A stretch of DNA of 64,000 nt, from the NCBI RefSeq assembly GCF_000226975.2, contig NZ_CP019285.1:1178001-1242000 (forward strand), given 5' to 3'. Below the pieces are notes generated by a model. The model saw only the letters and a list, made by a program, of their open reading frames with translations. It was not told the origin of the DNA and did no database searches. Below, piece by piece: positions 35,027-39,985 of this stretch. Each line of letters starts with the position of its first letter. The stretch's first letter is position 1. Source of the stretch: Halobiforma lacisalsi AJ5 (lineage in GTDB: Archaea > Halobacteriota > Halobacteria > Halobacteriales > Natrialbaceae). A program made the position numbers and the translations under genes.

Positions 35027-36790
35027 CTACCGGAGCGCCGCGAGGTCGAACTCGAAGCCGGCCACGGGCACCTCGAGGTCGTGCTCGACGAGCACCTTCG
35101 GGTGTACCTCGCCGATGACACCGACCGTCTCGCCGTCGATGACGACGCTCGCCGTTCGACCCGAAATGAAGGTCGGGTGCTCGGTCGGCGGGGTCTCCAG
35201 ATCGACGTCGAACTTCCGGCAGAGCGCCTGCAGGCGCGCCTTGGCGTCCTCGTAGCCGGCCTCGTGGCTCGCGAGGACGGCCCCGACGCGGCGCCGTTCG
35301 GCGACGCCGGTGTTCTCGCTCTCGTCGACCTCGGCGGTGAAGCCGATCTCCGCTAAGTCCTGCGGGTACGCGCGGTGAGTGTTGCGCTCCAGGACCATCA
35401 GCAGCGAGGGCGTGACCCACGTCCGCAGCATGGTGAAGTCCTCGCTGTATGGACCCTTGATCGTCGCCGGCTCGCCGGCGCCGTAGACGTCCTCGCCCGG
35501 CTCAACGTTGACCCGCTCGTAGTTCTCCTCCTCGCTGATCATGTGGAAGTTCAGCAGGTCCTCGAAGCCCAGCCCGACGAGTTGCTCGCGGACCGACCGC
35601 TCGAGGCGGGAGCGCTCGTGGCGGCCGCCGACGGTCCCGACGTCGGGGTATTTCGGCTCGAGGTCGTTGAAGCCGTAGGCCCGGCCGAGGTCGTCGATGA
35701 CGTCCAGCGGGTGGAGCACGTCGACGCGGTACGGCGGGATCGTGACCTCGTGGACGAGGTTGCCGTCGTCGTTCTCTTCTTTTTCTGCCTCGAGTCCCGA
35801 TCGCTCGGCGAGGTCAATCACCTCGTCGGGGTCGAGGTCGATGCCGAGGATCGTCTCGATCCGGTCGTGGGCGACCGTCTTCGTCTTCGTCGAGAGGTCG
35901 GGGCGGACGATTTCGTGGTCGGGGTACTCGACGGTCACTTCCTCGAGCGTGGCCCCGCGGGCGGCCAGCGCGTAGCAGACGATGTTGAGCATCTTGTCGA
36001 TCGTCCACTGGTCCGTGCCGGTCATCTCGACGAACAGGTCCCGCGAGTCGGTCGAGACCTCGGTGCGCCGGCCGTTGATCACCGGCGGGAACGAGAACAG
36101 CCCGAGATCGTCGTAGATCGCCGGATACCGCTCGTACTCGCTGACCAGATCGGCGTACGTCTCGCCGGTCGGGTGCTCCTCGAGGACGTCCGCGGGCGTC
36201 ATCTCCCGATCCGAATCGAGGGGGACGAAGGTGTCCTCGTCGGGCTCGAGACCGACGTACTCGATCGTCGGGGTCCCCTCGGTCGCGGGGCTCGCTCGCG
36301 GCTCATCGCCGCTCGCATTTTCCGATGCGCGTAGCGCATCGCGACCCTTGAGCATCGTGAGATCGTGAATCCCGATCGCGCCCTTCGCGCGCTTGCGGCC
36401 CATCGTCGCGTGGAGCTTCTCCTGTAGCTGAATGAGGGAGTCGAGGCCGTCCTCGTCTAAGTCGACGTCGCGGATCACCGCGCCCGTGACGTACGGCCGT
36501 TCCTCGGGCACCGACTCGTCGACCTCGATGGTCCACTCCGCGGAGTTGGTCGAGGGGACGTGCACCCCGCGGGCGTCGCCGTACTGGTAGCGCAGCGAGC
36601 GGGCGACCCCCTCGACCGAGAGCCGGTCGAGGCGGTCCGGTGCGAACTCGAGTTCGAACTCGCCGTCCTCGGTGCGGCCCTCGAACTCGAGGCCGAGGCC
36701 GAACAGGTCCGCCTTGAGCTCCTCGTCGCCTTTCTCCTCTTTGCCGGTCAGGTCGCGCAGTTCGTCGGGGTCGATGTCGACCGTGGGCAT
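35027..36790 (-). CDS. pheT: Phenylalanyl-tRNA synthetase beta subunit
   Basis: 587 residues, archaeal/eukaryotic-type beta subunit (no EMAP-like N-domain). It provides the B3/B4 editing region (about 100-280) and the B5 domain, then the catalytic-like domain at the C-terminus that pairs with PheS to charge tRNA-Phe. Its ATG overlaps the pheS stop (TGATG, base 36790), so both subunits are made in a coupled way. An in-frame insert around ASENASGDEPRASPATEG (about 148-170) coincides with the two-hairpin DNA element. Confidence 0.95.
   Translation of the reverse strand: MPTVDIDPDELRDLTGKEEKGDEELKADLFGLGLEFEGRTEDGEFELEFAPDRLDRLSVEGVARSLRYQYGDARGVHVPSTNSAEWTIEVDESVPEERPYVTGAVIRDVDLDEDGLDSLIQLQEKLHATMGRKRAKGAIGIHDLTMLKGRDALRASENASGDEPRASPATEGTPTIEYVGLEPDEDTFVPLDSDREMTPADVLEEHPTGETYADLVSEYERYPAIYDDLGLFSFPPVINGRRTEVSTDSRDLFVEMTGTDQWTIDKMLNIVCYALAARGATLEEVTVEYPDHEIVRPDLSTKTKTVAHDRIETILGIDLDPDEVIDLAERSGLEAEKEENDDGNLVHEVTIPPYRVDVLHPLDVIDDLGRAYGFNDLEPKYPDVGTVGGRHERSRLERSVREQLVGLGFEDLLNFHMISEEENYERVNVEPGEDVYGAGEPATIKGPYSEDFTMLRTWVTPSLLMVLERNTHRAYPQDLAEIGFTAEVDESENTGVAERRRVGAVLASHEAGYEDAKARLQALCRKFDVDLETPPTEHPTFISGRTASVVIDGETVGVIGEVHPKVLVEHDLEVPVAGFEFDLAALR
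36298..36341. repeat. Two-hairpin in-frame element, copy 3 in pheT
   Basis: Hairpin A: GCGGC (36298-36302), loop TCATC, GCCGC (36308-36312), identical to copy 1. Hairpin B: CGATGCGC (36323-36330), loop GTA, GCGCATCG (36334-36341), perfect and covarying with copies 1 and 2. Confidence 0.75.
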
Positions 36791-38304
36791 CAGTAGGTCA
36801 CCTCCGTGTTCCGCAGCAGTTCGAGGTCACACAGCGTTCCGTGGATGTCGCGGATGTCCTCGAAGCCGTACATCAGCATCAGCAGTCGCTCGAGGGCCAG
36901 TCCCCAGGCCATCACGTCGCATTCTACACCGAGGGGCTCTAACATCTCCTCGCGGAAGATGCCCGAGTTGCCGATCTCGACGAGTTCGCCGGTCGTCGGG
37001 TGGGTGCCGAACAGTTCGAACGACGGCTCCGTGTAGGGGTTGTAGTGGGGTTTGAACTGGATGTCCTCGATGCCGAACTGGGCGTAGAACTCCTCGAAGG
37101 TGCCCATCAGGTCCCGCACGGAGAGGTCCTCGGCCATCACCCACCCCTCGATCTGGAAGAATTCGAGCAGGTGGGTCGGGTCCAGCGTGTCGTTGCGGTA
37201 GACCTTCTCGACGCTGAAGAACCGCGCCGGCGGCTCGATCTCGCCGATCTCCTCGCCCGACAGGTACCGCGTCGACAGCGAGGTCGTGTGCCCGCGCAGG
37301 GCGAGCGCCCGCGCGAAGTCCTCGTCCCACGGCGAGTGGTACCCCTCGCCGTCCTCGCCGACGCCCTCCCGGTGGGCGCGCTCGACGTCCTCGACGAGTC
37401 CCTCGGGGAGGTCGTCGATGTGGGTCGGCTCCTCGAGGGCGAACCGATCCCAGTGAGTGCGGGCAGGGTGGTCCTGGGGCATGAACAGGCAGTCGTTGAT
37501 CCAGAAGTCCGCGTCGACGTGGGGACCCTGCATCTCCTGGAAGCCCATCCCGACGAGGACGTCCTTGACGCGTTCGGCGGTCTGTCGCAGGATGTGAACG
37601 TTGCCGCCGTCGACGCGCTCGGCGTCGGCCTCGACGTTGTAGTCGGCGAACTCGACCTCCTCCCACTCGCCGCTGGTGAGCAGTTCGGGGGTGACCTGCC
37701 CGACCGTCTCGGCGGTCTCGACGCCGGCCATCAGTTCGGTGACGCCGTCGTCGGTCAACGTTACCTCGCGGGCGGTCGTCTCGACGACCTCGACGAGGCC
37801 GCGCCGCTCGAGGCTCTCGAGGGTGTTCTCGTCGACGTCGGTGTCGGCGTCCCCGGCGGCGAGTCCCTCGAGGGCCGTCGCCTCCGCGTCGGCCGCGGGC
37901 TCGGCGTCCGGGTCGGCGGTGATCTCGCCGCTGTCGATGACGCCGTACCCCTTCCGGGCGTAGTTCGAGAGCGCGATGTCGACCGCGTTGCCCTCGAGGC
38001 CCGAGCGGCCGATGACCTGTCCCATCGAGACCGAATCCTCGTCGGCGCCGGCCTCGAGGGCGGCCTCGTAGAGACGTACTTCGGGCAGTTCGTCGGCAGC
38101 GTACTCCTGGCCCTCCTCGGTGAGTTCGATCGATTCGTCGACGCGCTCCTCGACCGTGACGAGTCCCTCCGCCTCGAGTTCGAAGGCCGCCCCGGTGACG
38201 GTCTCCGGCGGGAGGGCTGTCGCCTCGGCGAGGGCGTCGACGGACGTTGCCTCGTCCGCGCTCGCGGCCTCGAGGACCGCGACCTGTGATTCTGGGAGTT
38301 GCAT
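36790..38304 (-). CDS. pheS: Phenylalanyl-tRNA synthetase alpha subunit
   Basis: 504 residues, the archaeal length. The N-terminal ~220 residues carry winged-helix modules that bind tRNA. Class II motifs follow: motif 2 around FSVEKVYRNDTLDPTHLLEF, then FKPHYNPYTEPSFELFGT and the motif 3 AWGLALERLLMLMYGFEDIR near the C-terminus. First gene of pheST. No TATA box at the leaderless position is obvious in front of it; instead a short Phe-rich reading frame and a stem-loop lie upstream, so the mRNA probably begins near 38575. Confidence 0.95.
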   Translation of the reverse strand: MQLPESQVAVLEAASADEATSVDALAEATALPPETVTGAAFELEAEGLVTVEERVDESIELTEEGQEYAADELPEVRLYEAALEAGADEDSVSMGQVIGRSGLEGNAVDIALSNYARKGYGVIDSGEITADPDAEPAADAEATALEGLAAGDADTDVDENTLESLERRGLVEVVETTAREVTLTDDGVTELMAGVETAETVGQVTPELLTSGEWEEVEFADYNVEADAERVDGGNVHILRQTAERVKDVLVGMGFQEMQGPHVDADFWINDCLFMPQDHPARTHWDRFALEEPTHIDDLPEGLVEDVERAHREGVGEDGEGYHSPWDEDFARALALRGHTTSLSTRYLSGEEIGEIEPPARFFSVEKVYRNDTLDPTHLLEFFQIEGWVMAEDLSVRDLMGTFEEFYAQFGIEDIQFKPHYNPYTEPSFELFGTHPTTGELVEIGNSGIFREEMLEPLGVECDVMAWGLALERLLMLMYGFEDIRDIHGTLCDLELLRNTEVTY

Positions 38305-38428
38305 TCGCTTGGTTAGATGGCTGCGTGGCGGTCAGTTAGCGGTTCCGACTCGCGTCGGGGACGAGTTCGAACGGCGAGTCACGCGGCCTGCGTGGTCCGA
38401 ATCCCGTTCGCGATACCGATCCGCGACG

Positions 38429-38476
38429 GACGGTTTCGCCGCGGCGACCCGGTAGGGACGCCGCGGGTCCACCGTC
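38429..38476 (-). promoter_or_regulatory. Candidate pheST attenuator stem-loop
   Basis: Starting 10 bases after the leader-peptide stop, the transcript can form an outer 6-base stem (38471-38476 with 38429-38434), a symmetric 4x4 internal loop and an inner perfect 8-base GC stem (38459-38466 with 38439-38446) with a 12-base loop. No U-tract follows. The remaining leader 38305-38428 is GC-rich with further small inverted repeats (for example CCGAC/GTCGG and GACTCG/CGAGTC). No other gene is seen in 38305-38650. Confidence 0.5.
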
Positions 38477-38485
38477 TCGAGTCCG

Positions 38486-38575
38486 TCAGAAGAAGCCGAA
38501 ACCGAATCCCGACTGCGTGCGCTGTGGCTGGCTGGCGGTGGCGACACCGGCACGAGCGAGGGATTCGGCTGCCAT
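38486..38575 (-). CDS. Phe-rich leader peptide upstream of pheST (predicted)
   Basis: A 29-codon frame on the pheST strand starts with ATG at 38575 and ends with TGA. The peptide begins MAAESLARAGVATASQPQRT and ends QSGFGFGFF, with four Phe among the last six residues and codon use like the genes around it. A T-rich TATA-like tract (CGTTTTTGCCC, about 38598-38608) sits 28 bases upstream, so the frame would be translated leaderless. Phe codons placed directly before a stem-loop and the phenylalanyl-tRNA synthetase genes are the layout of bacterial attenuation leaders such as that of E. coli pheST. That this works in an archaeon is inference. Confidence 0.6.
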   Translation of the reverse strand: MAAESLARAGVATASQPQRTQSGFGFGFF

Positions 38576-38650
38576 ACACGTTCGATTCGTGACCGAGGGC
38601 AAAAACGTTGCGGGACGGTGGCACGGTCCGTCAGCCCGGCCGGACTCGCG

Positions 38651-39985
38651 CTAGCCGTTCGACAGCCGCGTCGTCTCGAGCGAGCCCGAATCGACCCAGA
38701 CGAAGCCGGACTGTTCGGCGGCGGCTTCGGCCCGGCGAACCGCGCCGGGGTCGAACTCCTCGGCGAACTCGATGCGGGTCTCGTCCGGTTCGGCGGCCGG
38801 GAGTTCCGGGAGGAAGTCGTCGTCCTCGAGCAGCCCTCGCACGGAGACGTCGCCGCCGGCGCCCAGCGCGGCCCCGAGCGCCCGGTAGCGGTCGTTCTCC
38901 GTCTCCCACTCGACGCCGCTGCCGAAGGAGTCGTTCGAGACCCGCGCGGTGTCGACGGTTCCGGAGAGCGAGCCGAATTCGGGGTCCCCTTCGATCGAGT
39001 CGAGTTTCCCGTCCCCGGTCGCTAGCGATTCCCGATCCGTCCCCTCGATTCCACTCCCGCCCCGGGCCTCGTCGTCGCACCCCTCGTCCTCGCTCACGCG
39101 CGAGACGGAGGGCGACCCGCGCAGTTCGAACCCGTCGGTCCCCCTCGAGGTCGCGCCAGAGTCCTCCGTGCTCCGGTTCCGGGTCCGGTTCGACCCGGCT
39201 TCGGCCTCCTCGATCAACGACGTCGCGTCCTCGGTCGGTGGCGTGCTCGCGTTCCGCTCGCGGTCGGTGGCCCAGTCGGGCCAGGGGCCGTCGCCGTCAG
39301 GGCCCTCCGCCGATTCGTCCCCGGCGTCGGGAACGTAGGCCTCGAGTCGAAGGCCGTCCTCCGGGAGCAACGGCCGGTCGAACGGTTCGATCCGCGGGCC
39401 GTACCGCTCCCGGAGGGACTCGAGTTCGCGGCCGTCGACCAGCGCGGCCCGCCAGCGGTCGACGCCAGCCGAGAGCAGGACGAACCGTGCGTCGGTGCCG
39501 GCCAGCAGCGACTCCTCGATCGCCCACAGGACCGCCGGCAGGTTGTCCGTCCCCAGGGGCGTCTCCGGGTACTCGAAGGAGGCCTCTCGCCGGCGGCCGT
39601 CGAGGTCGGCCGCCCGCAGTTCCAGTCGGTCCCGCGGGCCGGCCGTGATCGCCCGCTCGAGGTCGAACGACCAGCCGATCGATTCGAAGACGCGGGTCAA
39701 CTCGGCCGCGAGCGTCTCGCGGGGGTACCGCGCCGAGCAGTTGATTCCGCGGGCGCTGCGGGCCATAACCTCCCGCAGGACGGCCGTGCGGTCACGGCCG
39801 TCCGAGAGGACGTCGACGAGGGCAGCCTCGAGGGAGTCGGCCGTTCCGGGTTCGCCGGTTCCGTTGCCTGCACGGCGTTCGACGTCCGCGGGCCTGACGC
39901 CGAACGCGCCGAGCACGTCGGCCGCGAGGAGGTCGTCGGCGGTAGCGGTGGCGTCGCCGTCGTCGCCGGAGGGAGGGCCAGCCAT
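38651..39985 (-). CDS. Haloarchaeal protein of unknown function with disordered middle
   Basis: 444 residues, no membrane segment. Residues about 10-200 form a folded domain (DLLAADVLGAFGVRPADVER, then LTRVFESIGWSFDLERAITA, and FVLLSAGVDRWRAALVDGRE). Residues about 210-350 are Ser/Glu/Asp/Gly-rich and variable. The last 80 are conserved again (RYRALGAALGAGGDVSVRGL ... AAEQSGFVWVDSGSLETTRL). I do not recognise the family. The ATG at 39985 is preceded by AATATAAGTT (40011-40020), a TATA box at the leaderless distance; a TTG at 40012 is a poor alternative. It is on the same strand as pheST but 75 bases upstream of the leader, so independent. Confidence 0.65.
   Translation of the reverse strand: MAGPPSGDDGDATATADDLLAADVLGAFGVRPADVERRAGNGTGEPGTADSLEAALVDVLSDGRDRTAVLREVMARSARGINCSARYPRETLAAELTRVFESIGWSFDLERAITAGPRDRLELRAADLDGRRREASFEYPETPLGTDNLPAVLWAIEESLLAGTDARFVLLSAGVDRWRAALVDGRELESLRERYGPRIEPFDRPLLPEDGLRLEAYVPDAGDESAEGPDGDGPWPDWATDRERNASTPPTEDATSLIEEAEAGSNRTRNRSTEDSGATSRGTDGFELRGSPSVSRVSEDEGCDDEARGGSGIEGTDRESLATGDGKLDSIEGDPEFGSLSGTVDTARVSNDSFGSGVEWETENDRYRALGAALGAGGDVSVRGLLEDDDFLPELPAAEPDETRIEFAEEFDPGAVRRAEAAAEQSGFVWVDSGSLETTRLSNG

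Follow-up and report, generated by a model that had tools for sequence, protein, structure and literature searches.

Attenuation through a leader peptide is textbook knowledge for bacteria. In the E. coli pheM-pheST, trpL, hisL and pheL systems, a short open reading frame (ORF) containing a string of cognate codons precedes synthetase or biosynthesis genes, and at Streptomyces trpRS1 ribosome-mediated attenuation, again bacterial, employs a Trp-codon leader before the TrpRS gene. Synthetase genes are also governed by the status of their own tRNA through 5′ RNA, as in T-box riboswitches and thrS-type autogenous control.

The haloarchaeal leader described here resembles the E. coli pheM/trpL class in carrying a cluster of cognate codons in a short ORF directly upstream of the cognate gene and, we infer, in having an RNA structure that reads ribosome position. 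It departs from that class in that the mRNA is predicted to be leaderless, with start-proximal codons forming one arm of the switch; in lacking an intrinsic terminator with a U run, together with any antiterminator that we could find; and in possessing a hairpin, designated B, of a type absent from Rfam. Unlike T-box and thrS systems, the pheS leader contains a presumably translated sensor ORF. Ten pheS loci gave no Rfam match at gathering score, and an Rfam search of positions 38200-38700 of the window (the whole 64,000-nucleotide stretch of Halobiforma lacisalsi DNA that was analysed) gave no T-box match at E values up to 5, the only match being unrelated and sub-threshold. The element would appear to work like bacterial leader-peptide attenuation without the terminator by which that class is recognized. 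A full-text literature search, whose reach excluded the 2023 Haloferax small proteome and 2020 ribosome profiling studies, returned no archaeal leader-peptide attenuator. Our reading, to which we assign a probability of about 0.8 on comparative sequence evidence, is that a cis-acting, ribosome-read leader senses charged tRNA-Phe and tunes the expression of pheST accordingly.

A Phe-rich frame upstream of pheST

The leader ORF encodes 29 amino acids plus a stop codon at 38486..38575 on the minus strand, with the translation MAAESLARAGVATASQPQRTQSGFGFGFF and the C-terminus SGFGFGFF. The initial annotation had singled out this C-terminus as Phe-rich, and the translation indeed places four Phe among the final six residues. 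It had also placed the frame ahead of pheST, and both genes do follow on the leader strand: pheS, the presumed target, at 36790..38304 (minus), and pheT, the presumed co-target, at 35027..36790 (minus). The name pheS comes from that annotation and from our own reading of the sequence, and pheT was named by position and by our own reading. In the window, 181 nt separate the leader ORF from the pheS start. A BRE/TATA-like element, P1 (CGCAACGTTTTTG, 38600..38612, minus strand), has its T run 26-30 nt upstream of the leader ATG, in agreement with the suggestion of a TATA-like tract at leaderless distance. Similar motifs recur in relatives with unchanged spacing to the leader ATG, which suggests that P1 is a promoter, and since leaders begin ∼28 nt past the TATA-like tract, they should be leaderless.

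A transcript start upstream of the leader, as the initial annotation implied, is on record for Haloferax volcanii. The uORF section of Babski et al. (2016; PMC4983044) describes 97 H. volcanii transcripts with 5′-UTRs of 150-250 nt and tabulates 16 uORFs. Number 13 (26 aa, pI 5.9, 2772 Da) precedes pheS, HVO_2948, for which the table marks no additional start site, and number 12 (23 aa) precedes the tryptophan-tRNA ligase gene HVO_A0127 (PMC4983044). The dRNA-seq start accordingly lies 150-250 nt before pheS, with the 26-aa uORF between (PMC4983044). Phe leaders of 26 aa occur in six genomes of our group g40, which are probably Haloferax; their masses are 2792-2850 Da and their pI values 4.4-5.9. 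The length and pI of the H. volcanii pheS uORF fit these leaders, its mass being 2772 Da against 2792-2850. Selection of the eight g40 loci rested in part on the match of five of them to the stem A and Phe-run pattern described below. The uORF section of that paper is silent on the sequence of the peptide, its conservation and codon content, on RNA structure, and on any role in regulation or attenuation (PMC4983044).

Conservation of the frame in other haloarchaea was a check set beforehand, and it came out in favor of the leader. A PheS scan yielded 80 loci, 60 of which have an ATG-initiated ORF with at least three Phe among its last 10 residues; adding 60 further loci gave 140, of which 129 have distinct upstream DNA. 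At 100 of these 129 distinct haloarchaeal loci, spread over most of Halobacteria, pheS is preceded by a homologous short ORF whose C-terminus holds a Phe cluster, with 95 leaders accepted by rule and five by eye (L019, L024, L117, L153, L162). No leader was recognized at the other 29; L050, L080 and L168 were scored absent by eye. When a fixed criterion was applied (an ATG ORF of 20-50 aa with at least three Phe in its last 10 residues, within 480 nt upstream of pheS), 100 of 128 loci gave a hit, against a mean of 0.1 in dinucleotide shuffles and none on the reverse strand. Demanding in addition a tract that is T-rich or TATA-like between −34 and −22 left 99 of 128, with a shuffle mean of 0.0. 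A third batch of 20 haloarchaea, mostly from little-sampled genera, added leaders at 14 loci, some so strongly diverged (...DAFEPFFD, ...GSGFFFPRR) that little besides the Phe cluster is kept. Among 20 loci hand-picked from non-haloarchaeal genomes with matches, no leader was found.

Specificity was assessed with a pattern comprising both stem A strands and the Phe run, applied to 234 genomes. It matched 62 of them, at a single place each, and its reversed control matched none. By hand comparison against known pheS places, 59 of the 62 matches lie within ∼310 nt upstream of pheS on the same strand; the matches in G056, G149 and G220, which have no recorded pheS place, fall outside the 59. Because of its peptide end, GFGFGFF, the source genome is not matched by this strict pattern. 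Three leader peptides queried against NCBIfam and Pfam belonged to no family. Judged by these sequence comparisons, the leader frame at 38486-38575 (minus) is real, beyond chance.

Both ends of the peptide are strongly conserved and the middle drifts freely, with lengths of 24 to 48 aa. The longer leaders of L012, L016 and L022 (46-48 aa) keep both ends, and two of them have an internal repeat. Among the accepted leaders of one set, pheS lies 93 to 245 nt away. A minimal form occurs in the small-genome haloarchaea L172 and L231, where pheS starts ∼35 nt past the leader stop; this spacing is too short to hold P2 and a complete hairpin B, so hairpin B is not universal. A record labelled as a Pacearchaeota MAG (L025) carries a haloarchaeal pheS with a Phe leader and is probably a mis-binned contig.

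Phe codons, stem A and hairpin B

The proposed sensor consists of Phe codons 24, 26, 28 and 29 (38489..38506, minus strand); the codons were identified by translation, and their U content marks them as the most U-rich stretch of the leader transcript. In 99 of 99 leaders the first Phe codon, located in stem A, is TTC, and the later ones comprise 187 TTC and 82 TTT. In a 63-locus subset, TTT accounts for 50 of 172 later leader Phe codons versus 55 of the 1195 Phe codons of pheS at these loci (Fisher p ∼1e-20, with related species counted although they are non-independent). Since the later codons vary between TTC and TTT, the amino acid is conserved and the codon is free, with a bias toward U. 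At all 100 leader loci, the U-richest 12 nt between the leader start and pheS fall on the Phe codons. At the level of codons, these sequences provide strong evidence for Phe sensing.

Stem A joins start-proximal codons to the Gly-Phe-Gly codons. Its 5′ strand, ORF nt 8-16 in codons 3-6 (38560..38568, minus), is supported by complementarity and covariation and is formed in the predicted fold; its 3′ strand, ORF nt 66-74 around Gly23-Phe24-Gly25 (38502..38510, minus), is likewise supported by complementarity and covariation. The codons for the conserved N-terminus (M-x-x-Glu-Ser/Pro) and the Gly-Phe-Gly codons are reverse complements of each other, and on this comparative evidence it is base pairing that explains the N-terminal peptide conservation. 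Over the ten core pairs in 97 distinct sequences (L019, which had a wrong anchor, was excluded), 872 of 970 cells are paired, whereas sliding the register gives at most 634. ORF nt 13, a T or C that specifies Ser or Pro, pairs with the third base of a Gly codon. Its combinations with the partner are T-A in 40 of the 97 sequences, C-G in 37, T-G in 18, C-T and C-C in one each, and C-A in none; at nt 8 they are C-G in 81, T-A in five, G-C in three and T-G in three, with five unpaired, and the shuffles behind these covariation counts ignore relatedness. Parsimony on a PheS tree of 63 loci indicates that nt 13 changed eight times and its partner five times, and the C-A cell was empty in only one of 174 accepted simulations of independent change on that tree. 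No excess is seen for the pairs at nt 7, 17 and 18, and stem A is accordingly taken as nt 8-16; most of the remaining pairs are nearly invariant and hence uninformative on covariation.

Hairpin B, of the form CGG-YGGA-stem-NGAAA-CCG, lies just past the leader stop at 38429..38476 (minus) and scores 49.3 bits with our model R1. A regular expression for the hairpin matched at 81 of 100 leaders. For alignment A1 we took 37 of 54 deduplicated hairpins, picked for similar length and hence biased toward well-behaved members; on these 37 sequences RNAalifold predicts nine pairs, eight of them with double changes, and GAAAC is invariant (37/37). In the source genome, the pheS copy is the best R1 match, and the next have E values of 0.008 and weaker; the others inspected (L174-L180) fall within open frames and were taken as chance. 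Three of the 29 loci scored as lacking a leader have hairpin B before pheS at E < 0.01 (L051, L071 and L168), and L051 and L071 retain a Phe-rich frame despite that scoring, from which we conclude that hairpin B goes with the leader. At L051 the frame, GFGFFFA, has no ATG-started ORF running into it, which may reflect decay or a sequencing error.

The longest T run between the leader stop and pheS is three or fewer at 100 of 100 leader loci, and no U-run terminator follows the leader at any of them. Neither a conserved antiterminator/terminator pair or alternative pairing partner nor a conserved pairing reaching the pheS start was found in the leader loci. Pairing of the Phe codons (CGGYTTY) with the 3′ arm of hairpin B (GAAACCG) was attractive by eye only; arm changes in L046, L143, L164 and L129 match the 5′ arm of B and not the Phe codons, and codon pairing was dropped. 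A kink-turn reading of the internal loop of B, worked by hand, gave no fit. Only in a Natrinema-type alignment and some relatives (L008, L018, L021, L034) does a GCCCGG/CCGGGC hairpin enclose the leader stop. Closer to pheS, a P2-like motif (CGGAACCGCTAACTGA, 38332..38347, minus) is a possible second pheS promoter common to most loci with and without a leader; it may provide leader-independent basal expression of pheS and could bypass the leader, but the H. volcanii table shows no start site at such a place (PMC4983044).

A Trp-codon leader before a second trpS

Like Streptomyces trpRS1, a second haloarchaeal trpS is preceded by a Trp-codon leader, which differs from the Streptomyces one in being archaeal, leaderless and equipped with a start-to-codon stem. 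The sample comprised nine plasmid trpS loci and relatives of the H. volcanii HVO_A0127-type protein, for which 77 of 234 genomes matched; from these, 50 upstream regions were taken, the 30 best-scoring loci plus 20 chosen ones (L268-L317). A short ORF with W-x(0-2)-W was present in 46 of the 50, versus a shuffle mean of 0.90 and three on the reverse strand. Two of the peptides read MTSALEWSWRWQTPSRADSVVVAGDVA and MVSTSHANCWRWHAFREVDSIAV. Near the start, the codons TCCGCTCTC are reverse-complementary to GAGAGCGGA, which directly follows the Trp codons, and equivalent pairs occur in other lineages: TCCGCTCCC/GGGAGCGGA, TCCACTTCC/GGAAGTGGA and TCGGCTCTCC/GGAGAGCCGA. A complementary run of at least 8, with G-U allowed, is found in 47 of 48 Trp leaders, a figure that stands without a shuffled control.

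Trp and Phe leaders encode different peptides and share the same start-to-codon stem. That unrelated leaders should combine this stem with codons matching their own synthetase is, in these sequences, the strongest argument for codon-specific sensing, and the existence of a Trp counterpart suggests that haloarchaea use such a solution generally and not as a one-off. No element like hairpin B was recognized in the Trp leader. At 46 of 47 Trp leaders, GCTC[ACT]CT followed by a pyrimidine-rich tract lies 21-41 nt past the leader stop and is possibly a terminator or cleavage signal. The Trp leader of the source genome (L298, G000:C1:724180-724900, beyond the window) has a GTG start and a single Trp codon.

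Ribosome position, output and rival explanations

Downstream of the leader, the base of hairpin B is separated by a median of 15 nt from the last Phe codon and 5 nt from the stop codon (77 loci). We modelled the effect of a ribosome by masking an assumed footprint that extends 15 nt to the 5′ side and 10 nt to the 3′ side of the A-site codon in 77 of the 81 hairpin loci, leaving out L019, L027, L041 and L137. In this purely thermodynamic model, which ignores kinetics and high salt, mean pairing probabilities are 0.57 for stem A and 0.48 for the B base with no ribosome; 0.00 and 0.43, respectively, with either the first or the last Phe codon in the A site; and 0.65 and 0.05 with the stop codon in the A site. 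These probabilities imply that A and B are set in opposite senses by ribosome position, although by pairing they are not mutually exclusive.

We infer the following chain of leader translation, stalling, A/B switching and effect on pheST. With ample Phe-tRNA, the ribosome would reach the stop codon and stem A would close behind it, burying the leader start; the B base would be blocked, the U-rich Phe tract would lie bare, and little pheST would be expressed from the leader transcript. When Phe-tRNA is scarce, a ribosome stalled on the Phe codons would hold stem A open, let B fold and cover the U-rich tract, and pheST would be expressed. The output, which is the least certain step, may be premature termination or cleavage by aCPSF1/FttA. 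aCPSF1 is described as binding terminator U-tracts and driving termination in Methanococcus (PMC8716108), and FttA-dependent termination is proposed to compete with coupled ribosomes (PMC11616081). A ribosome that stalls on the leader's sole U-rich part would be expected to block such termination.

The attenuation proposed in the initial annotation is supported in part: Phe sensing is favored by the codon evidence and by the cognate Trp leader, and classical transcription attenuation finds no support, with T runs of three or fewer and no conserved antiterminator/terminator pair found. The same absence of a U-run terminator speaks for an alternative output, in which Phe is sensed identically and no termination occurs, the stalled ribosome, the open stem A and hairpin B protecting the mRNA or aiding ribosome access to pheS. 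The ∼35 nt that separate leader and pheS in L172 and L231 would suit such an output, while distances of 93 to 245 nt elsewhere and the lack of conserved pairing extending to the pheS start would not, and the TTT bias fits selection for U-richness or slow decoding more easily than selection for stability. We regard a translational or stability output as a serious contender at somewhat less than even odds, and our preference for aCPSF1/FttA is by a small margin, the two being about as likely.

PheRS might bind hairpin B in autogenous control, much as E. coli ThrRS binds its own mRNA: the conserved YGAAA of B bears what we take to be a resemblance to the tRNA-Phe anticodon loop, GAAAC is invariant in 37 of 37 sequences, and B occurs only at pheS in the source genome. 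This analogy is nonetheless improbable, since the GAA of B sits in an internal loop and not a hairpin loop, the Phe cluster and stem A go unexplained, and the Trp leader has no recognized B-type element. Strong conservation of both peptide ends would also be expected of a small protein acting in trans and encoded before pheS by happenstance. We hold this to be very unlikely, given that base pairing accounts for the N-terminal conservation while the middle drifts, that the ORF adjoins pheS wherever checked, and that the Trp leader pairs another peptide with the same RNA logic. Because its two strands form an inverted repeat close to the promoter, stem A could be read as DNA sites for a transcription factor, with the ORF incidental, yet the two strands lie at varying distances from each other, in peptides of 24 to 48 aa, G-U pairs occupy positions where DNA would be mismatched (18 of 97 at nt 13), and the Phe codons vary synonymously, which makes this even harder to credit. 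Least plausible of all, to the point of being negligible, is a chance ORF without function, for which only the short length speaks and which is already refuted by conservation versus shuffles, the covariation of stems A and B, and the specificity of the pattern.

Returning to the ribosome-read leader, we offer as a tentative proposal, and a rather doubtful one, that it belongs to a haloarchaeal class of ribosome-position attenuators of its own, including at least pheST and the second trpS, in which leaderless first codons would serve as a switch arm, U-rich Phe codons would be the aCPSF1/FttA loading site that a stalled ribosome blocks, and attenuation would proceed with no terminator hairpin. 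Because leader-peptide attenuation depends on transcription-translation coupling, such leaders bear on coupling in archaea, about which a 2021 Haloferax study states that nearly nothing is known (PMC8576121). The element is compact, occurs in a genus amenable to genetics and comes with predicted single-codon and compensatory mutants, which brings in vivo tests of coupling, stalling and aCPSF1-dependent termination within reach.

Within the source genome, no cognate leader was recognized at 11 other synthetase genes found via PF00133 and PF00587 and named from our own reading of their sequences, nor at a prephenate-dehydratase-type gene or three chorismate-binding-type gene regions. At L199, 215 nt upstream of a MetS-like gene, the short ORF MTDLPPVDSFYSMPM follows a TATA-like tract at the distance expected of a leaderless start, perhaps by chance.
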